Assembly: GCA_021442455.1 (NCBI GenBank) | Contig: JABUSY010000046.1 | Coordinates: 1 to 64,000 of the forward strand | DNA from: Lachnospiraceae bacterium | Lineage (GTDB): Bacteria > Bacillota > Clostridia > Lachnospirales > Lachnospiraceae | Direction: 5' to 3' | DNA: 64,000 nt | Shown here: positions 18,776 to 51,924 of the stretch, one piece after another | How the letters are laid out: each line of letters starts with the position of its first letter | How positions within the stretch are numbered: position 1 is the stretch's first letter | The notes under the pieces: generated by a model | The model's input: only the letters and a program-made list of their open reading frames with translations | Told to the model about the DNA's origin: nothing | The model's database searches: none | Position numbers and translations under genes: made by a program

Positions 18776-19810
18776 ATGTGAAAATCTTGGTGACAGAAGG
18801 TGCAGGATATATAGGCAGCCATACATGTGTAGAATTGTTGCAGGAAGGGATATGATGTAACCGATTGTCGATGATATGTATAATGCCAGTGAAAATCTTG
18901 AATGTGTGGTAGGGATTATCTGGGAAAAGGTAACTTTTTATAAAGAGAATATCTGCAGAAGTACATCAATGGAACAGATTTTTGAGCTGGAAGTGTTGAA
19001 CGTAGTCATATATTTTTCAGGATACAAGGTAGTTGGTGAATTTGTGGAAAAGCCCTTTGAATATTATCAGAATATGATAGGAATTCTGACTTTTTGAGAC
19101 GTAGACGTAATAGAAAAAACACGGAGTAAAAAAATATCATTTTCGGTTCTTCCACAACCGTATATGGAAGTTTTGGCCGAAATACCGATTGCTGAGAATT
19201 GGAGCAAAGGAATGTGTACGCCCCTTACGGATGGACGAAATGGATGCTGGAACAGGTACTGTTGGATAAATTCTAGACAGCTGATCCAGAATAGAAAGTG
19301 ATTTTCTTCGGTATTTTTACCAGATGGGAGGGGCGTATAAGAGCGGTTTGTTAGGTGAAAATCCAAAGGAACTTTCCAATGACCTGTTTCCTTATGTGGC
19401 CAAAGTTACCATTGGTAAGCGAAAATCTCTTGGTGTGTGTTCAGTAATGATTATGATACGCCTGACGGCAGAGACATTCAGGATTACATACATGTGGTAC
19501 ATCTTTGCCAGAGGTTATGCAAAAGCTGTACAAAATATTGGTTGACAGAGAAAAAGGGGGGATAGAATATATATCCATGGGGATGGGAAAAGGATACAGC
19601 GTGTTGGCTTGGTTTTATGGAAAAGTCTGTCCGGCCATGAGATCCCTTATGAGGATTAAGCTCAGACGGGAAGAAGATGTAGCAGTCTGTTATTGTGATT
19701 CACGAAAAGCCAGAGAAGAGTTAGTCTGGAAAGTAAGGTATGGGATTGAAGAAATGTGCAGAAATTTTTTAAAATGGAAAAGACAGAATCTCGATGGATA
19801 TGGCATATAA
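18776..19810 (+). pseudogene. galE: eroded UDP-glucose 4-epimerase
   Basis: VKILVTEGAGYIGSHTCVELLQEG, YNASENLECV...VTFYKENI...VVIYFSGYKVVGEFVEKPFEYYQN, CVYGSFG, YAPYGWTKWMLEQ, YISMGMGKGYSVL, DVAVCYCDSRKAREELVWK..YGIEEMCRNF..W: collinear with GalE but in shifting frames with stops. Confidence 0.9.
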
Positions 19811-22761
19811 TGTCGTTCTAAGTTAAAAAAATTCATAGATTTACATGAGCTTTCAATTTTAAAATAATATCTTCTGTGCTAGCATGAATATATGTCGGAT
19901 ATATCGACAGAAGAATGCGGTATGTCTGGAAAAAGCATGTTGTTTAATATATTTGGTTGAAGCTATGATTATGCTCATAAACGGGATGACACTAGTAATC
20001 ATAAATGTACTGAAGCAATTGAATTTGGAAATGGGTGGGCGCAGTAAAATTTGTGTAAGGGACAGTTTTTTTTGAATGGGATGCTTTAGATCATCCTTTT
20101 TTATTCTTTCCACTAGACGGCAAAAGGTTTCTTTTTTGGAGAGATTATAATGAGATACGAGATAGGAAGAAGTTGGTATGATATTGTTTCGGAGAGATGA
20201 TATTAGAAAGATTCGTGTTTCTGGCTAATGTGTCCGAATGGACAACATGGGAGTTGGCAGGTTTGCTATAGCTACGAATCTGGAAATTGAGTAAAATAAC
20301 AAAGACTGATATTCTTCTGTGAAGAAGAAGTATTGGTAAGCATCTGGAAAAGATTATTTTGACTTAGATGTGCATTCTCGGTTCATTCGGAAGAAGATTG
20401 ACAGCAAGGGACAACTCTCTGGTGCATATCACTGAATTTGGGGGAAAAAATAAGATACTAAAGCAGGATCGGTGAAAGATAGTTATTATATTTCTCAGCA
20501 AAACCATATTAAGAGAATCTTCAGGATTATAAGACTACTATGAAAAAAATATGGAGAACGAAGAAAATGTTCGGAGAACAGTCAAGGAGTATAGAAGGTT
20601 TTATGATACGTTTCCGAATCCGAAACGGCTGGCATATGCAGAACTAAAGGCGTTGCTGGAGTGCAAACCTGGGCTACCATGCCACAATACGTAAAAGAAA
20701 CAGCAGAATAAATACTGAAGGTAACTAATCCTGAAAAAGATAGTTGAACTGCAATATCTGGTGGATAAACAGAAATTATTACGCTGCTGCTAGATTTGAC
20801 ATAAATTAGCAAACTGCATTTGTCTGTTCGGGATATATATGCTGAGGTCGTTGCCGATAAATATATCAATTCGGAAGATACTGATGCTATCATTTATCCG
20901 AACGGGTTCTCCCTTTGGAAACAGGGGTATGTAGGTGTCAGCAATATTTGTTTTATTTTGATTTTTATGGGGATAAAGGTGAAGTAATCAGAGAAATTTT
21001 ATAGCTCTATAAATGTACTGATTTCAAAAAAAATAAATAAGAAAGGAAATGGAAGTATTGAAAAACAATTATATCACTGAATAATTTTGAAATTTTATCA
21101 TGATAATTATACTGATTCTTATACAGTATTGTTAGCGTTACTCATTTCATTATCAAAATCTTATTATAAAAATATAGTTATCCAATGAAAATCTAAGATA
21201 TGAAGTGATATACTGTATTGTTGGGTGTTTTCATTGTTTATTTGATTAAGTAGATTGAAGAAAGTTCAGAAAAACGAGAAGAAAATATCTGAAAGCATTG
21301 AAAAAAAGAATGAAGATTATATGGAAGAAAGTAGTAATTTTCAGCCGTTTCCTATAAACTAAACGTGTATAAATATTTCAACAGTTTGGATATGGTCGTT
21401 GTATGTGTAATATATTCTTTCATCGAAGAGTGTGTTATCTTTTTAAAACATATCTGCAATATTTATATAGCAGTTATTCCTGTTTTAATGTATTATATTT
21501 TGGAACGAAAAATATTTTTATCATATCTCAAATTGGAAAATTGGCTATGATTATTCAGTTTTGTGTCATGTATTTTCATATAGTGTTCTTAGCAAGCAAA
21601 TCGAGAGAAGAAGATCAAGCAAGTGGAAAGATCAGTTCCTTATTGACAGTATATTTTATCATGAAAAATCAAGACGGTAGCCGATTTTCTGTCAAATACA
21701 GGAAAAAACGGTGAAAAGAAGATTTGACTGTGTCGAAATCAGTTTTGCGCACGTTTGTTTTTGGAAAAAAACTCTTCGCTGTGAATAAAGTGAATCCAAA
21801 GAACTTGAAAAACTTTTCGAGTAAAGACCTGATAGGATATGAAACATCATCTGCGTCTATAGGATATAGTAGCTTTTCCAGTGTTGTCTTTGCAAGCTTT
21901 TGCAATTCAGACAAAACTAAAAACGCCAGAATTCAAAGCCTAACGTCTCGGATTTTTTCCTACCTATATAAAAACAGGAAATTTGCCATAGATGTATCCC
22001 GTTTATCATTAGCTTGTGCATGGCGTTTTTAGTTTGTTACGTTTTGTATCGTATAATGCTAGAGAATTAAGAAAAACATAGTAGGTATTCTATACAAAGC
22101 TGAATAAATTTTATGAATACGGTAGAATACAGTCACGATCCTATTGTATATCGTTTTTCATATCGAAAATCGTATGATGAAACGGATACTTCTATCAATG
22201 AGATGGTTTGATAAAATAGATAAAATTATCCAGCCAAACGAAAAATATTGTTGCTAGTGAAAGTTGTGTTTGAAGTTTATGAGCTTACTAATATTGTTCT
22301 GTGAGCGGATATCTGCTGCACAAAGAATTACGTGACAGCATTTATCTATAGGGACTGCTCTTGAGTGTATTGTTGATCATTTTTTAGAAATTTCTAACTC
22401 CAGAAATTTTTAAAACTTTGGTCATATGATTTGCCATATTCCTCTTAATACGCAGTCGAAGCAATGGTGGACGAAATGCTGTCTTGAGACAAACATTCAT
22501 ATATCTATAGAAAAACACTTTAAATAATGTAGGGACAATGCTATAATATCTATGGAAGCAATAATCAGTGTAAAAAACTTTAAATTAATGCTGTATTCGT
22601 AACATAACGCGTTTTCAGTTTACCTGATTTTGGCGAAGTTCGTCGTTTCGTAAAATCTCAGGTTTTTCAAGTCGTACTGCGACTAGCAAAGAGGTCATAT
22701 ATCCTCTTTCTCAAGTTATTGCGAATATCAGTTGAGGAATAAGAAAAAGGAGAAAAACATT

Positions 22762-22932
22762 ATGAAACATATCAAGACATTGAATGAAAAGAATTTTCAA
22801 AAGATAGTTACAAAAGGTGGATGTGGCGAATGCCAAACATCTTGTCAGTCTGCCTGTAAAACATCCTGTACCGTAGGTAACCAAAGTTGTGAGCATAAAA
22901 AAATAAACAGAGCTGATATAAAGTTTCTATGA
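22762..22932 (+). CDS. SCIFF-type ranthipeptide precursor (six cysteines in forty-five residues)
   Basis: MKHIKTLNEKNFQKIVTKGGCGECQTSCQSACKTSCTVGNQSCEHKKINRADIKFL; Cys pattern and MKHIKTLN leader characteristic of SCIFF; start at ATG 22762 after aaaaaggag SD, followed by its maturase. Confidence 0.92.
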   Translation: MKHIKTLNEKNFQKIVTKGGCGECQTSCQSACKTSCTVGNQSCEHKKINRADIKFL

Positions 22933-23015
22933 GGTGTTCTGGATATCTGGTAATCGGAAGCAGAAACACCATTTTCTGGAAGTACAGGACAACATTTGAG
23001 AAAAGAGGTTTATCC

Positions 23016-24371
23016 GTGATTCATCAATATAAAAATAATGGTTTTAACATGGTTCTTGATGTAAACAGCGGATCGGTTCATGTAGTGGATGATGTCGTGT
23101 ATGATTTGCTGGATTTGATGAACCGAAAGCTTTCGCTGGAGGATATTACAGCAGTTCTGAAGGGAAAATATACATTTAAAGATATCGGTGAAGCATATGC
23201 TGAGGTACGGGAGCTGATGGATGCAGGCATGTTGTGTACTGAAGATGTTTACCGAAATAAGATTAATCATTTTCAGGATAGTATTGTACTTAAGGCTCTT
23301 TGCTTGCATATTGCTCATGACTGTAATTTAGCATGTAGGTATTGTTTTGCAGAAAAAGGTGAATACCATGCTGAAAGAGGATTGATGTGCCTGGAGGTAG
23401 GAAAAAAAGCTTTGAATTTTTTAATTACGCATTCTGGGAGTCACAGAAATCTAGAGGTGGATTTTTTTGGAGGTGAGCCGCTCATGAATTGGCAGGTGCT
23501 CAAAGAGCTTGTGGCTTACGGACGTATACAGGAAAAGAAGCATCACAAAAATTTTCGTTTCACCCTTACTACGAACGGCGTTCTTCTGAACAACGAGGTG
23601 ATGGAATTTTGCAACTGGGAGATGAGCAATGTGGTTATGAGCATCGACGGACGGCAGGAATTTCACGATCGGATGCGTCCGTTACGTCAAGGGAGTGGTA
23701 GTTATAGCTTGATCGTTCCAAAGTTCCAGAAGTTTGCTGAGAGCCGTCATCAGGAAAAATATTATGTGCGTGGTACCTTTACTCATTACAATTTGGATTT
23801 TTCTGCCGATGTGTTGCATTTGGCAGATCTAGGGTTTAAGCAGATTTCTGTAGAACCGGTAGTGGCACCGAAGTCTGCTGATTATGCAATCCGAAGAGAG
23901 GATCTACCTGTCATCATGGAGCAATATGATATTCTAGCCAGAAAAATGATTCAAAGGCAAAGAGAAGGGAGAGGTTTCAATTTTTTCCATTTCATGATAG
24001 ATTTGATCAATGGCCCTTGCTTGTATAAGAGGCTTTCAGGCTGTGGATCAGGCACTGAATATCTAGCGGTTACTCCATTAGGAGATTTCTATCCCTGCCA
24101 TCAATTTGTTGGGAAAAAGCAGTTTTGCTTAGGAAATGTGGAACAGGGTATTAAACGGACAGAGATTTGCAATGAGTTTAAGCAGTGTAATGTTTATTCA
24201 AAAGAGGAATGTTCCAAGTGTTTTGCAAAATTTTACTGCAGTGGTGGATGTGCCGCCAATTCTTGGAATTTAAAAAGAAAGATCAATGATATTGATGACA
24301 TTGGATGTGATATGCAACGCAAGCGACTTGAATGCGCCTTGATGATAAAAGCAGCTCTGGCTGATGAATAA
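23016..24371 (+). CDS. SCIFF maturase, radical SAM/SPASM thioether (ranthipeptide) synthase
   Basis: Likely GTG start 23016 after aaaagagg SD (VIHQYKNNGFNMVLDVNSGSVHVVDDVVYDLL); CNLACRYC radical-SAM motif; C-terminal SPASM cysteines CGSGTEYLAVTPLGDFYPCHQFVG...CNVYSKEECSKCFAKFYCSGGCAANSW; adjacent to SCIFF peptide. Confidence 0.94.
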   Translation: MIHQYKNNGFNMVLDVNSGSVHVVDDVVYDLLDLMNRKLSLEDITAVLKGKYTFKDIGEAYAEVRELMDAGMLCTEDVYRNKINHFQDSIVLKALCLHIAHDCNLACRYCFAEKGEYHAERGLMCLEVGKKALNFLITHSGSHRNLEVDFFGGEPLMNWQVLKELVAYGRIQEKKHHKNFRFTLTTNGVLLNNEVMEFCNWEMSNVVMSIDGRQEFHDRMRPLRQGSGSYSLIVPKFQKFAESRHQEKYYVRGTFTHYNLDFSADVLHLADLGFKQISVEPVVAPKSADYAIRREDLPVIMEQYDILARKMIQRQREGRGFNFFHFMIDLINGPCLYKRLSGCGSGTEYLAVTPLGDFYPCHQFVGKKQFCLGNVEQGIKRTEICNEFKQCNVYSKEECSKCFAKFYCSGGCAANSWNLKRKINDIDDIGCDMQRKRLECALMIKAALADE

Positions 24372-24384
24372 ATAAAAACATAAA

Positions 24385-25480
24385 GGGATATTCATTAATG
24401 TTATTTTGATCATCTGTATAGTTGCTGCTTGGATTCTTTACTATCAATAAGATAGAGGGGGAAATGAATATCAGGAGGGGAGTATGACGAATATCCGCAC
24501 AGAGTTGGATTTTTCCCAAAGTATTAGCATCGTGTATTAGATGAAGGTAAAGAAATTCTACTCAAGAAGAATATGAATAATATAATTTACAATTTATAGC
24601 AGCGTGTTGCTCAGTACAGCAATGTGGCATAGGTATCAATAGGAATTTTACTCGGATTAGTATTGAAATTTTGAAAAAGAACAAGAAAAATACGTTTCTG
24701 AAAAAAGTTGCATAGATTTGGTTTATTGGTATTTCCAGAATGAAAGCATTAATACAGTTTTTTATCGTCAATGTGCAAAGTGTAGCGAAAACAATATATG
24801 TTTGATGTTCTCTGAGGGAAAGGTAAACTTAAATTTTCTGAGACTGTTATAAAGACAAGATAGACAAGAGGATTAAATCTTGTATCCAGATGATAAAGTA
24901 TAATTACAAAGGACATGTCTCAAAGAAACGACATGTTTGGTATTGACGACGGTGTGATAGCCGTTATTATAGAAGTTCTGATTTTCATTATCTTTATTTT
25001 TATAATTGTTGTATATAGGATATTTACTCTAGCAAAAGGTTGAAACTTGGTAATATTCACTTTTCTAGATTTAATATATCTGAATACCTTTGATCTTACG
25101 TTGATTTTGTTTGAAATTGTAGGTGTCCATTTTGACAATTGGCGTGAATTGTAGATGTTGATTATTTATCTATGTATGAATGCGAGAAGCACTGACAGTA
25201 GGAAAAGAGGTTGACGATTACATAGAATCGGTTTTTTAAACAAGAAAGCTTTTTTAGTAGTCTTTTGAAATAATGTGTTAACTTTGATAACTATGGCAGT
25301 GTTCTATTTGTTGAGAATTGATAGTATCTGTTGGCGTGTGTTTATATTTGGCGATATGATCGCAGGTCTTCAAATTTTATGGCACAATCAAAGCCTACAA
25401 GTCGATCAATTTTGTATGAAAGGAAAATTTTTTGTTCATCTTCTCGACAATACTGGGAATTACTATTGTAGTGAATTTTA
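24385..25480 (+). pseudogene. secD: eroded protein-export membrane protein SecD
   Basis: Fragments NIRTELDFSQSISIVY, QRVAQYSNVA, IFIIFIFIIVVYRIFTLAKG..LVIFTFLDLIYLNTFDLTLILFEIVGV (cf. SecD ALDLTLTLPGIAGI), IGFLNKKAF, separated by stops/frameshifts; expected position downstream of SCIFF pair. Confidence 0.85.
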
Positions 25481-25739
25481 GTAAAAAAATTGAGTCTCTT
25501 GGTATACCTTAGATACATTCGGTGATATCAGAGATAATCGAGCATGAGAATGTGATTTTTCAGTAGATTAATGACATTAACTAGATGATTATCAAGAGGA
25601 GAGTTGAATGCGGATGGCAGAAAATAGCTGAAAACAGTAATTTCTGAAAAGTTATCAACGTGGAAGAAATTATGGGGGGAAATTTCTTTCTCGCTTAGTG
25701 AGCAAATCAGGCAAAAATATCATACAAGTTGTTGCAATG

Positions 25740-26240
25740 ATGCTAATCTTTACGTTTTTGTATATTTGATTTTGTTTGTTACTTTTTGGATCTTCGTTTC
25801 ACTTCCAGTTTTAGTATATGCTATTTTTATTTTTCTGTTTTTATGTCTTCTCCCGTTTGTTAATGAAGAGCATATTTATAGTTGTCATGCTGACAATCTT
25901 CGGCTATTTGATCCGCGCTCTTTATATGACTGGATTCGGGGAAAGCTGTCAAGTATGTATGAAGGATATCAGCTGGAAACTGAATATGCATATATCTGTA
26001 ACCAAAAATTTGACAGAAAGTATTTATTTTTTACGACGTTTATCACGATTTGTGATTGTATCTGTTGGATGTTTTGTAAGTCAGAGGATCTACTCTTTTG
26101 ATCATTGCGAAATTTTCGTGAAAGCCTATTCTGCCGTATGTCTAACCAGTTCTTTGTAAGTATATCATGAAAGCGAAGCCGGGTACAAACGATCTTAAAT
26201 AAAGAGACAGTTTCTAAACTTGTAGTGGTGGCAACATCTT
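25740..26240 (+). pseudogene. secF: eroded protein-export membrane protein SecF
   Basis: MKSIFIVVMLTIFGYLI and VTKNLTESIYFLRRLSRFVIVSVGCFV..IYSF..CEIFVKAYSAVCLTSSL resemble SecF FIAAMLTIVGYSIND and VNQTLTRSINTSLTTFI...AYSSI regions, frame-broken. Confidence 0.7.
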
Positions 26241-26364: not shown

Positions 26365-28080
26365 ATGGAAAAATGGATAGTAATAGCAGAACATGCCGAT
26401 TTCATGGATATTGCAAGGCAATTTTCAATTGATCCAGTGCTTGCTCGGCTGATACGGAATCGGGATATAGTGGCAAGTGAAGAAATAAAAAAATATCTGT
26501 ATGGAGGGCTTTTAGATCTGTATCCTCCGGAGCAGCTTAAGGGAATACGAAAGGCAGGCAAAATTTTGCTACAGAAGATTAGGGAGAGGAAACTGATCCG
26601 GGTGATTGGAGATTATGATATCGATGGGGTAATGTCTGCTTATATATTACAGACAGGGTTGAAACGTCTAGGTGCTATTTGTAATGTGCGGATGCCAGAG
26701 AGGATCAAGGACGGCTATGGGCTGAATGAAAATCTAGTTCGCCAGGCTTTCGATGATAGCATTGATACGATTGTGACTTGTGATAACGGGATTATAGCGT
26801 CTGCTCCCATCTCTCTAGCTCGAGAATTGGGAATGTCTACGGTAGTGACCGATCATCACGAAGTTTCCTATTCTGAACAAGAAGATGGAACACGTGAATA
26901 TATACTTCCGCCTGCAGATGCAGTAATTAATCCAAAACAGCCAGGCTGTTCTTACCCTTTTAAGGAGATTTGTGGCGCTGCTATAGCATGGAAGCTAATC
27001 TGTTATCTCTATAATCAGGTAGGCATAGAAGAAAAGGAACAAGAAAACTTTTTGGAATTTGTGTGTCTTGCTACAGTTGGAGACGTGATGGATCTTCAGG
27101 ATGAAAACAGAATTTTAGTAAAAGAAGGCTTGAAACGTCTCCGAAGGACGAAAAATTTGGGGATCCAGGCATTGATCAAGCAAAATGGTTTGGAGCCGCT
27201 TCAGATAGACGTTCATCACATCGGATTTGTATTAGGACCATGCTTGAATGCAAGCGGGAGGTTGGATACGGCGAAACGCACTTTGGATCTGCTGACAGCG
27301 GAAAGCAGGGAAGAGTCGGAGCGGCTAGCAAGAGATCTGAAAGCTATGAACGAAAAGCGAAAGGGAATGACGGAGCAGGGGGTAGAGGAAGCTGTCAGCT
27401 TGGTGGAATCTACATCACTGATAGATGATAAGGTCCTAGTAATTTATCTTCCAAATTGTCACGAAAGCCTGGCTGGAATCATCGCAGGAAGGTTAAAAGA
27501 ATATTACCACAGGCCTTCTTTCGTACTGACGGGGAAGGAAGAAGGGACGAAAGGTTCCGGGCGTTCCATTGAGGTCTATTCCATGTATGAGGAGCTTTGT
27601 AAATGCCGAGAGTATTTAATACGTTTTGGAGGTCATCCGATGGCTGCTGGAATTTGTATGGAGAAAAAAAATATACCGTTATTTCGGGAAAGGATCAATC
27701 AACTATGCGAACTTACGGAAGAAGACATAATTCCACAAATTACCATAGATGCTCCCATGTCCATACGCTATGTCAATCGGAAGCTGCTGGAGCAAATAGC
27801 TCTACTTAAACCTTTCGGTAAGGGAAATCCAAGACCTCTTTTCATAGAAAAAAAAATGAAAGTGTTAAATCAAAGAATTTTTGGCAAAAATAGAAATGTA
27901 GTAAAAATGCAAGTGATGAACGAAAACGGCTATGCGATGAACGGAATTTACTTTGGAAACGCAAGAAAATTCAGCCATTACGTCGCCATACATTCTCAGC
28001 TATCTCTTGTTTATTATCCTAGTATCAATAGTCATATGGGTCACGAAACTTTGCAAATCATAATCACCAACTATCGATAA
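26365..28080 (+). CDS. recJ: single-stranded-DNA-specific exonuclease RecJ
   Basis: RVIGDYDIDGVMSAYILQTGL, VTDHHEVSY (DHH), LGPCLNASGRLDTAKRTLDLLTA, RFGGHPMAAGICME. Confidence 0.96.
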   Translation: MEKWIVIAEHADFMDIARQFSIDPVLARLIRNRDIVASEEIKKYLYGGLLDLYPPEQLKGIRKAGKILLQKIRERKLIRVIGDYDIDGVMSAYILQTGLKRLGAICNVRMPERIKDGYGLNENLVRQAFDDSIDTIVTCDNGIIASAPISLARELGMSTVVTDHHEVSYSEQEDGTREYILPPADAVINPKQPGCSYPFKEICGAAIAWKLICYLYNQVGIEEKEQENFLEFVCLATVGDVMDLQDENRILVKEGLKRLRRTKNLGIQALIKQNGLEPLQIDVHHIGFVLGPCLNASGRLDTAKRTLDLLTAESREESERLARDLKAMNEKRKGMTEQGVEEAVSLVESTSLIDDKVLVIYLPNCHESLAGIIAGRLKEYYHRPSFVLTGKEEGTKGSGRSIEVYSMYEELCKCREYLIRFGGHPMAAGICMEKKNIPLFRERINQLCELTEEDIIPQITIDAPMSIRYVNRKLLEQIALLKPFGKGNPRPLFIEKKMKVLNQRIFGKNRNVVKMQVMNENGYAMNGIYFGNARKFSHYVAIHSQLSLVYYPSINSHMGHETLQIIITNYR

Positions 28081-28109: not shown

Positions 28110-28425
28110 TTCTATGTTTCAGTAATGTTATACTTTGAATTGAAATGCTGAATATTGAAAGAATATGTGAGAAGTATTCAGGGATTATCTTTAGATGTAA
28201 GTAATATTTTGTAGAACACAGACAGGTTACAACTTGCAATTGAAAACTTATTGCAGAGACCGCTTGAAAGTTTAGATTTTGTTGTGATTGTGTCAATGTA
28301 CTTCAAAAGATTTGTGTTTAGCGTTCTATTCACATATAAATCGTTTATTTTGATTCGCATACTGATAAAAAAGATTCATCAGATGAGCAGTGTAATTGAT
28401 ATACAATGTTTGAAAGGATGATATC

Positions 28426-29055
28426 ATGGTAAAGATGAAAATTCAAACTCTAGTTCTTGGAATGGTAGCGACTAACTGTTATTTCCTTCTAAATGCAGAT
28501 ACAAAGGAAATGATCCTGGTGGATCCGGCGGATGAAGTGGAAACTATCAAAGACAAGGTAAATGCTATGGAAGGTAGGCCGGTAGCTGTGTTGCTCACCC
28601 ATGGGCATTATGATCATATTTTAGCAGCCGACAGCGTGCGTAAGATCTATCAAATTCCAGTATATATTCATGAGCTAGACGAAAGGAGTCTGAAGGATGC
28701 TTCCTTGAATCTTTCCAAGTTTTGGAGATCTTCCTTTACTATGAAGGCAGATCGGCTGTTGAAGCATGGTGACGAGTTGCATCTGGCAGACTTTGGAGTC
28801 CGTGTTCTGCACACTCCAGGACATACCGTTGGCAGTGCCTGTTATTATTTTCAGGAGCAAAAAGCTTTGATGAGCGGGGATACTATGTTCTTCCGCTCTT
28901 ATGGACGGACAGATTTTCCTACTTCCAGCATGCTGGATATGAAGAAAAGCATCCGAAGGCTGTTGCAGGAATTGCCGGATGATACGATCGTATATCCGGG
29001 GCATGAGATGTCCACAACAATTGCGATGGAAAAGAAATATAATCCACTTGCTTAA
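28426..29055 (+). CDS. MBL-fold metallo-hydrolase (glyoxalase II-like)
   Basis: LTHGHYDHILAADSVRKIY metal-binding HxHxDH motif, HTPGHTVGSACYYF, LMSGDTMFFRSYGRTDFP, VYPGHEMSTTIAMEKKYNP. Confidence 0.94.
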   Translation: MVKMKIQTLVLGMVATNCYFLLNADTKEMILVDPADEVETIKDKVNAMEGRPVAVLLTHGHYDHILAADSVRKIYQIPVYIHELDERSLKDASLNLSKFWRSSFTMKADRLLKHGDELHLADFGVRVLHTPGHTVGSACYYFQEQKALMSGDTMFFRSYGRTDFPTSSMLDMKKSIRRLLQELPDDTIVYPGHEMSTTIAMEKKYNPLA

Positions 29056-31571: not shown

Positions 31572-33368
31572 ATGGCTGAATCAATGACTGGTATGCATCG
31601 TTCTCATAGATGCGCGGAAATTACGGAAAGAGAAATTGGTACTCAAGTCACACTTATGGGATGGGTACAAAAAAAACGAAACAAAGGTGGCATCATATTT
31701 ATCGACCTGAGAGATCGGACTGGCATCATACAGTTGGTTTTTGAAAAAGATAACATAAAGGGAACAGGATTTGAGAAAGCGAGACAGCTCCGCAGTGAGT
31801 TTATCATCGCTATCACTGGTATCTTACAGTGGCGTTCCGGAGCGGTAAATAAAAAATTGGCCACAGGTACGGTAGAGGTACAAGTAGAATATATGCGGAT
31901 TTTAGCAGAGTCGGAGACACCACCATTTCCAATAGAAGAAAATAGTAAGACAAAAGAAGAGATTCGTATGAAATACCGTTATCTAGATTTGAGGCGTCCG
32001 GATATCCAGAGAAACCTGATGATGCGCTCACAGGTAGCGCTGTTGGTACGTCAGTTTATGGCCAAAGAAGGTTTTTTGGAGATTGAGACGCCAATGTTGG
32101 CTAAAAGTACTCCGGAAGGAGCACGAGATTATTTGATTCCAAGTCGCATACATCCGGGAAGCTTCTACGCTTTGCCTCAGTCTCCTCAGCTCTTTAAGCA
32201 GCTTTTGATGTGTTCGGGATATGATCGCTATATCTAGATTGCTAGATGCTTCAGGGATGAAGAGTTGCGGGCTAATCGGCAGCCAGAGTTTACACAGATT
32301 GATATGGAGATGTCTTTTGTAGACGCTGAGGATGTCATGGATGTTAATGAAAGGCTGTTGTCTTACCTTTTCAAAAAGGTGCTGGCTGTGGATGTAACGT
32401 TGCCGATTCAGCGTATATCCTGGAAGAAGGCAATGGATCGTTTCGGTTCTGATAAGCCAGATCTTCGCTTTGGTATGGAGCTTGTGAACGTATCGGAGAT
32501 TGTTAAAGGCTGTGAGTTTTCCGTTTTTAAAAATGCCCTCAAGCTACAGAATGGTTCTGTGCGCGGGATTAATGCTAAAGGTCAGGGTTGTATGCCAAAG
32601 AAAAAAATTGACAAGTTCGTGGATTATTGCGTAAAGGGATACGGCGCCAAAGGGCTGGCTTATGCTTTTGTTCAAGAAGGAGGCACGTTCAAATCTTCCT
32701 TTGCCAAGTTTATGAAAAAAAAAGAAATGACAGCTCTGGTAAGGGCTATGGACGGACAGCCGGGTGATCTGCTTCTGTTTGTAGCGGATAGCAATAAAAT
32801 CGTCTGGAATGTGCTAGGTGCGCTACGCCTAAAGTTGGCAGAGACAATAGGGTTATTGAACAAGAATGATTACTGCTTTGTGTGGATTACAGAGTTTCCG
32901 CTTCTTGAGTGGTCTGATGAGGAAAACCGTTTTATGGCCATGCATCATCCGTTTACCATGCCAATAGAAGAAGATTGGAATAAAATCGATACTGATCCGG
33001 GAAGCGTCAGGGCAAAAGCTTATGATATTGTCTTAAATGGAACGGAGTTGGGAGGAGGTTCGGTTAGAATCCACCAAAACGACATACAGGAGAAGATGTT
33101 TGAAGTTTTGGGCTTTTCGAAAGAAGAAGCTTGGAAACAGTTTGGATTCATGCTAAGCGCTTTTAAATATGGTGTACCACCTCACGCAGGGCTGGCGTAT
33201 GGCTTGGATCGTTTGGTCATGCTGATGGCACAGGAGGATTCTATCAGAGATGTCATCACCTTTCCGAAAATGAAGGACGCTTCCTGTCTGATGCTTCAGG
33301 CACCAGCGCTTGTGGACGACAAGCAATTGAAAGAACTGGCGATATCTATCTGCCAAAGGAAAGAGTAA
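31572..33368 (+). CDS. aspS: aspartate--tRNA ligase interrupted by one in-frame UAG (32235-32237)
   Basis: Two ORFs in the same frame join as ...[44 protein letters not shown]...; only one stop separates ~221 and ~376 intact codons; motif 3 GLAYGLDRLVMLM present. Confidence 0.93.
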
Positions 33369-49788: not shown

Positions 49789-51924
49789 ATGGAAGACAAA
49801 AAAATATTTTCCACGGCATTGATCAATAATTATAAGACATATTCGATGAATTTGGCAGGAAGGAAACTTTCTGTAGATATTGGAAGAGTAGGACAACAAG
49901 CGAACGGCTGTGCTTTCATGCATTATGGAGATACTACCGTTCTATGTACGGTAACTGCATCTGACAAGCCAAGGGACGGAATTGATTTTTTCCCTTTTTC
50001 TGTAGAGTATGAAGAAAAAATGTATGCAGTCGGGAAAATCCCAGGCGGATTTAAGAAAAGAGAGGGAAAGGCCAGCGAGCATGCGATTCTGGTCTCTCGT
50101 GTGATTGACCGCTCGATGCGTCCGCTGTTCCCACAGGACTATAGAAATGATGTGACTCTGAATAACCTGGTAATGTCTGTAGATCCGGAGTGTAATCCGG
50201 AGGTGGTGGCGATGTTGGGTTCTTTTATTGCTACAACGATTTCAGATATTTCCTTTGATGGACCTTGTGCGGCGACGCTGATTGGTATGATTGATGGTGA
50301 GTTGATTATCAATCCTACATTGGATCAAAATGTGAATTCTGATTTAAAACTGACCGTAGCCTCCACAAAGGATAAAGTTATTATGATTGAGGCTGGAGGC
50401 AATGAGGTGTCAGAGGAGAAGATGATCGAGGCCATCTATATGGCGCATGAGGTCAATAAAGAAATAATTGCTTTCATCGATACTATTGTGGCAGAATGCG
50501 GAAGTGAGAAGCATTCCTATGAGAGCTGTGTGATTCCGGAAGAACTGTTCGTAGCTATCAAAGAGATCGTACCGCCAGCTGTGATGGAAGAGGCTGTCTT
50601 CGCTGATTCGAAGAAAGTGAGGCAAGCAAATATCCGACAGATTAGTGTGCAGTTGGAAGAAGCTTTTTCCGAGAATGAAAAATGGCTTTCCGTGTTGAGT
50701 AAAGCAATTTATCAATATCAAAAACAGATAGTTCGAAAAATGATTTTAAAGGCTCGTAAACGTCCGGATGGCCGTTCACTTTGCCAGATACGTCCGCTGG
50801 CTGCTGAAGTTGATATTATCCCGAGAGTTCATGGTTCTGCCATGTTCACCCGTGGACAAACTCAAATCTGTACTGTGACGACTTTAGCTCCGTTGTCGGA
50901 GGCACAGAGGCTGGAGGGACTGGATGGCAATGAGAGCTGGAAGCGGTACATGCATCAATATAATTTTCCATGCTATTCCGTAGGCGAATCAAAGCCGTCT
51001 CGTGGGCCAGGAAGGCGTGAGATCGGTCACGGCGCGCTCGCAGAGCGCGCGTTGCTTCCAGTACTGCCGAGTGAAACAGAATTCCCCTATGCGATTCGGA
51101 CAGTATCGGAAACCTTTGAATCAGATGGTTCTACCTCGCAAGCTTCTGTTTGTGCATCATCTATGTCACTGATGGCAGCAGGTGTGCCGATTAAGAAAGC
51201 GGTGGCAGGAATTTCCTGTGGGTTAGTGAGGGGAGATAGGGATGATGACTATCTGGTTTTGACGGATATTCAGGAGTTTGAGGATTTCTTTGGTGATATG
51301 GACTTTAAAGTAGCCGGTACCCATGAAGGGATCACTGCGATTCAGATGGACATTAAAATTCCTGGTTTACCTCGCTATATTGTAGAAGAGACAATTGTAA
51401 AGTGCAAGAAAGCCAGAGAGTATATTCTGACAGAGGTTTTGGAGAAAACAATATCGGCTCCGCGTCCGGCTGTCAATGAATATGCGCCGAAAATTTTCCA
51501 AATGAAGATTGATCCGGATAAGATCGGCGATGTAGTCGGACAGAAAGGAAAAACGATTAACGCGATTATCAATCAGACTGGTGTGAAAATTGATATTAAT
51601 GACACTGGAAATGTATCTATTTGTGGTACTAACCAGGCGATGATGGATCAGGCAGTAAAGGATATCCAGATTATTACGACAGATTTTGAGGAAGGATAGA
51701 TATACATAGGAAAGGTTATCAGTATTAAAGAATTTGGAGTATTTTTAGAGTTTGCTCCTGGAAAGGAAGGGATGGTTCATATATCCAAGATCGCTAAAGA
51801 GCGCCTTAACCGAGTCGAGGATGTATTGGCTCTTGGTGATATTGTGAAAGTGATCTGCTTAGGCAAGGATAAGATAGGACGAATCAACTTCAGTATCAAA
51901 GATATGCCGGAGGAAAAGGAATAA
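49789..51924 (+). CDS. pnp: polyribonucleotide nucleotidyltransferase interrupted by one in-frame UAG (51697-51699)
   Basis: 636-aa ORF with PNPase RNase PH domains (GHGALAERALLPVLP) and KH domain; after TAG the same frame continues IYIGKVISIKEFGVFLEFAPGKEGMVHISKIAKERLNRVEDVLALGDIVKVICLGKDKIGRINFSIKDMPEEKE (S1 domain) to TAA 51922-51924. Confidence 0.93.

Follow-up and report, generated by a model that had tools for sequence, protein, structure and literature searches.

SCIFF has been described as occurring in almost all clostridia (PMC11063209). In the relatives studied, a single thioether, linked at the gamma-carbon, joins Cys32 to Thr37 in vitro and to Thr34 in E. coli, and the RRE of the maturase CteB binds the leader as a beta-strand (PMC8326336). 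In C. beijerinckii, disrupting this gene pair is reported to have brought a strong fall in sporulation genes and a rise in agr (Chen 2020, as described in PMC8102284 and PMC8326336). We surveyed the genomes of the order that were at least 90% complete (n = 245), and a maturase above the family cut-off was present in 226 of them. In a literature search of partial coverage, no paper came up that describes SCIFF in a symbiont or in a genome undergoing decay. The SCIFF pair described here is itself of a well-known kind; its added interest lies in its survival beyond the circuits to which SCIFF has been linked.

The window, meaning the whole 64,000-base stretch of DNA that was analysed, is the start of contig C4 in a genome (G000) of 1.38 Mb, assembled in 72 contigs and 98.4% complete. 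Its nearest relatives among the genomes compared, congeners of the same genus, have genomes of 2.3-2.5 Mb. The G+C content of the window and four other stretches was 35-37%, versus 52-57% in the congeners, and reading frames of at least 100 aa covered 37-68% of the sequence, versus 84-95%. The genome is decaying, as the first-pass annotation had proposed, with its small size, low G+C and many relics. The features in and around the pair were as follows.

18781-19798, + strand: galE relic, about 3 kb upstream of the pair
22744-22761, + strand: Shine-Dalgarno-like AAGGAG and spacer ahead of the scfA ATG, read from the sequence
22762-22932, + strand: SCIFF precursor scfA, 56 aa (TIGR03973, 85.5 bits, cut-off 50)
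22762-22815, + strand: scfA leader
22816-22893, + strand: conserved scfA core GGC...SCE, 26 residues
22894-22929, + strand: added scfA tail HKKINRADIKFL
22897-22903, + strand: seven-A run inside scfA, by comparison with G001-G003
23016-24371, + strand: SCIFF maturase scfB, 451 aa, GTG start (TIGR03974, 744.6 bits, cut-off 425)
24942-25328, + strand: secDF relic, SecD part (44% identity, 4 in-frame stops)
25719-26192, + strand: secDF relic, SecF part (28% identity, 3 in-frame stops)
26365-28080, + strand: intact recJ (TIGR00644, 483 bits, and synteny)

The precursor with a six-cysteine core and the full maturase with CNLACRYC, SPASM cysteines and no interior stops, both described in the first-pass annotation, were recovered by the family profiles at the scores listed. 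scfA runs from the ATG at 22762 to a TGA stop at 22930-22932, and its product contains GGCGECQTSCQSACKTSCTVGNQSCE. Positions 1-43 of the TIGR03973 profile aligned to residues 2-44, and the core carries the six cysteines that, within about 45 residues and at more than 50 bits, define the family. Cys32, the fourth core cysteine, was present together with Thr34 and Thr37. The same core occurred in 78 of 96 loci, with a one-residue difference in the remaining loci. The leader, MKHIKTLNEKNFQKIVTK, carried five substitutions relative to the usual MKHIKTLNTKNLQNTVKK and had the second-lowest profile score among 56 distinct leaders, the sole lower one being frameshifted or mispredicted. That leader, from a Blautia locus (L052), is apparently frameshifted directly ahead of the core, so some MAGs hold broken or misassembled precursors. 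The seven-A run is one base longer than in the CAT-ACA-AAA-TAA of G001-G003, and the extra A shifts the ancestral TAA (22904-22906) out of the reading frame, leaving 12 residues after SCE versus 2-5 in relatives. The A run may be a sequencing or assembly error. In a promoter and terminator scan around scfAB, matches were no more frequent than in shuffled sequences.

scfB lies next to scfA on the same strand, the adjacency by which a SCIFF system is recognised. The TIGR03974 match spanned the full profile (1-451 of 451), and the best solved relative was CteB (5wgg/5why), with 588.6 bits over 446 residues. The reading frame from 22929 to 24371 had no internal stop. GTG was the commonest codon at the start position among relatives (37 of 56 loci), and because of this the true start is almost certainly GTG 23016; the first 29 codons of the 480-aa frame that opens at ATG 22929 are therefore probably non-coding. 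The protein is laid out as an RRE (residues about 1-85), a radical-SAM core with CNLACRYC (103-110) and GGEP (152), and C-terminal SPASM cysteines (335-440). Alignment of the catalytic residues, proposed as a check on the maturase, showed that none of the 14 cysteines shared by over 90% of 93 relatives, including those of CxxxCxxC and the auxiliary clusters, has been lost.

We further examined selection on the pair, which the first-pass annotation had expected to be purifying. The core was identical to those of G001, G002 and G003 at 26 of 26 residues despite 18, 18 and 12 synonymous codon differences, respectively. In a neutral simulation, a crude model run 10,000 times with third-position divergence as observed, a mean of 2.4 of the 26 core residues was kept, with a maximum of 10. 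scfB shared 74-77% protein identity with the congeners at a third-position identity of 0.40-0.46. The proposed dN/dS comparison with relatives was run as pN/pS, dS being saturated between G000 and the congeners. It gave 0.165-0.182 for scfB, an average over the whole branch because synonymous sites are saturated, with which a very recent functional loss of the pair would be compatible. In the same block, pN/pS was 0.18-0.20 for argS, 0.19-0.22 for hisS, 0.17-0.18 for frr and 0.29 for recJ; the maturase thus fell within the range of its housekeeping neighbours argS, hisS and frr, and recJ was higher. The codon comparisons show that strong purifying selection has kept the core and the enzyme in a genome that is for the most part decaying.

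The pair could nevertheless be a relic in the making, intact in appearance and only recently released from selection. The leader and tail were the most deviant of the set, and the ancestral stop codon is lost. The maturase departed at 6 of the 141 columns invariant in 93 relatives (at most 3 in any relative) and at 10 of the 194 columns of at least 97% conservation (at most 6), so that among 94 maturase sequences the most deviations at conserved columns belonged to this genome. However, all cysteines and the whole core were retained, none of the 13 most conserved RRE columns was altered, and the acceleration of scfB over the congeners (dN ratio about 3.3) was typical of the other retained genes, mostly about 1.6 to 4.4. 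On balance, we regard recent relaxation of selection as unlikely.

The fate of the surrounding genes was then compared with the pair. In the syntenic block, 51 genes were common to G001 and G002, and in G000 17 of these were intact, 8 were degraded and 26 had left no trace there; the rule for intact was strict, and some degraded genes carry one stop only. Retention of about 1.5 kb is thus not improbable in itself. Downstream of recJ, an eroded remnant at 28155-28337 corresponds to the next gene (174-182 aa in congeners), and scattered remnants with an intact 209-aa gene at 28426-29055 lie between it and hisS. One in-frame TAG each was seen in aspS (31572-33368, at 32235-32237) and pnp (49789-51909, at 51697-51699), names that rest on synteny and reading of the sequence; the congeners have a conserved Gln at both positions, and the genes are otherwise well conserved. 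The TAG in aspS is odd because this gene should be essential. Reading of UAG as glutamine was considered and rejected, as RF1 is intact and TAG still terminates some long frames, and the tRNAs read included none with a CUA anticodon. With UAG reassignment unlikely, the explanations left for aspS and pnp are nonsense mutations of recent origin, variation between strains or an error in the assembly.

Losses of SecDF, GalE and Lon had been offered as the setting of the pair. The secD and secF genes downstream are indeed eroded, surviving as the two relics with in-frame stops, and no second copy of secDF was found elsewhere in the genome. secDF was also correctly named as the usual SCIFF neighbour: the order in G002 is scfA-scfB-secDF-recJ, with recJ directly following secDF, whereas here the usual linkage is absent and secDF is present as relics only. 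The linkage is usual rather than defining, because G001, a full-size congener (96% complete), had no SecDF match and kept SCIFF. For this reason SecDF loss was rejected as the key contrast. Nor is it diagnostic, since in G027, G036, G058 and G068 SCIFF was present with an absent or weak SecDF match; in G071, G078, G080 and G089 SecDF was present with no maturase of SCIFF level. The galE gene is a relic, as claimed, and no match above the galE cut-off was found elsewhere in the genome (an intact relative at C1:130448 scored below it), but it lies some distance upstream and is not adjacent to the pair. The loss of Lon was borne out, with no family-level match genome-wide versus two full-length copies in each congener.

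The regulatory circuits linked to SCIFF were also reduced. Spo0A, the master regulator of sporulation, is lost from the genome, and a spo0A relic with four in-frame stops was seen at C6:52170-52406 (L151). Receiver-domain matches numbered 2 (one with a stop) versus 17-21 in congeners, and none of the four genomes of the genus, congeners included, had AgrB or Peptidase_C39. Radical-SAM matches fell to 8 (one with a stop) versus 19-25 in congeners; besides the SCIFF maturase, the intact survivors were MiaB, MtaB, HemW, NrdG and two proteins on contig C32. This densely coding contig (L154, 1-9749) encodes B12-binding radical-SAM and DynA-like radical-SAM/SPASM proteins as well as three dynamin/AIG1-like GTPases, and could be a further modification system or a contaminating contig.

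It has been reported for solventogenic clostridia that the exported mature peptide acts in quorum-sensing and sporulation signalling, and the C. beijerinckii phenotypes cited above favour such a role. In this genome, however, Spo0A is gone and receiver domains nearly so, the congeners too do without AgrB and C39 peptidases, and the core hardly varies within the family, unlike species-specific pheromones. A quorum or sporulation signal is thus an improbable account of this pair. Retention as a host-association factor through a symbiotic lifestyle, which the first-pass annotation had offered as an alternative to a core function and for which the marks of host restriction speak (1.38 Mb, G+C 37% versus 52-57%, many relics), is very unlikely and was rejected on distribution, because a pair carried by nearly the whole order (226 of 245 genomes), with the same core in non-reduced relatives, has nothing specific to a lifestyle and its retention is the default.

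We therefore favour, with a probability of roughly 60%, a functional and vertically inherited SCIFF ranthipeptide whose housekeeping role depends on none of Spo0A, two-component systems, Agr, SecDF or a C39 exporter. The RRE of the maturase would bind the ScfA leader, and the radical-SAM cluster would generate a 5'-deoxyadenosyl radical. By analogy with CteB and Tte1186, a thioether may then close between Cys32 and Thr34 or Thr37. Because Spo0A, two-component systems, Agr, SecDF and C39 are absent or nearly so and the core is unchanged, the mature product would probably have a conserved role within the producing cell, acting upstream of or apart from the Spo0A, receiver-domain and Agr circuits. 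This role is argued by elimination, and other exporters or sensors could be present in the genome. If the housekeeping reading is true, the possible partners of SCIFF are narrowed to the reduced gene set kept by G000. The genome offers a natural experiment in which scfAB outlives the circuits previously linked to SCIFF, and a core unchanged while most regulation and several housekeeping genes were discarded argues for a function beyond sporulation and classical signalling. A wider proposal, that SCIFF serves the core physiology of Clostridia and that signalling for quorum or sporulation is not its primary role, is put forward tentatively, and we hold it with less than even confidence.

Compared with known systems, the maturase shares a related RRE-radical-SAM-SPASM architecture with NF040492 (not_ScfB), PapB (NF047865) and QhpD (TIGR03906), and it is placed outside these families because its scores were under their curated cut-offs (559 of 855, 267 of 340 and 261 of 453, respectively). 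It resembles the maturase of CteA/CteB from Clostridium thermocellum (5wgg, 5why) over its whole length, with the same CxxxCxxC and SPASM cysteines, and differs in a few residues that are conserved in CteB and relatives and changed here, such as Y427D, R143H and D134N. From usual SCIFF loci it differs in the five leader substitutions, the 12-residue tail in place of 2-5 residues, and the secDF relics. The gene order scfA-scfB-(secDF)-recJ is that of the congener G002, and the likeness to the SCIFF family (TIGR03973/TIGR03974) is close: both proteins scored far above the cut-offs, and the core is the family's commonest form.
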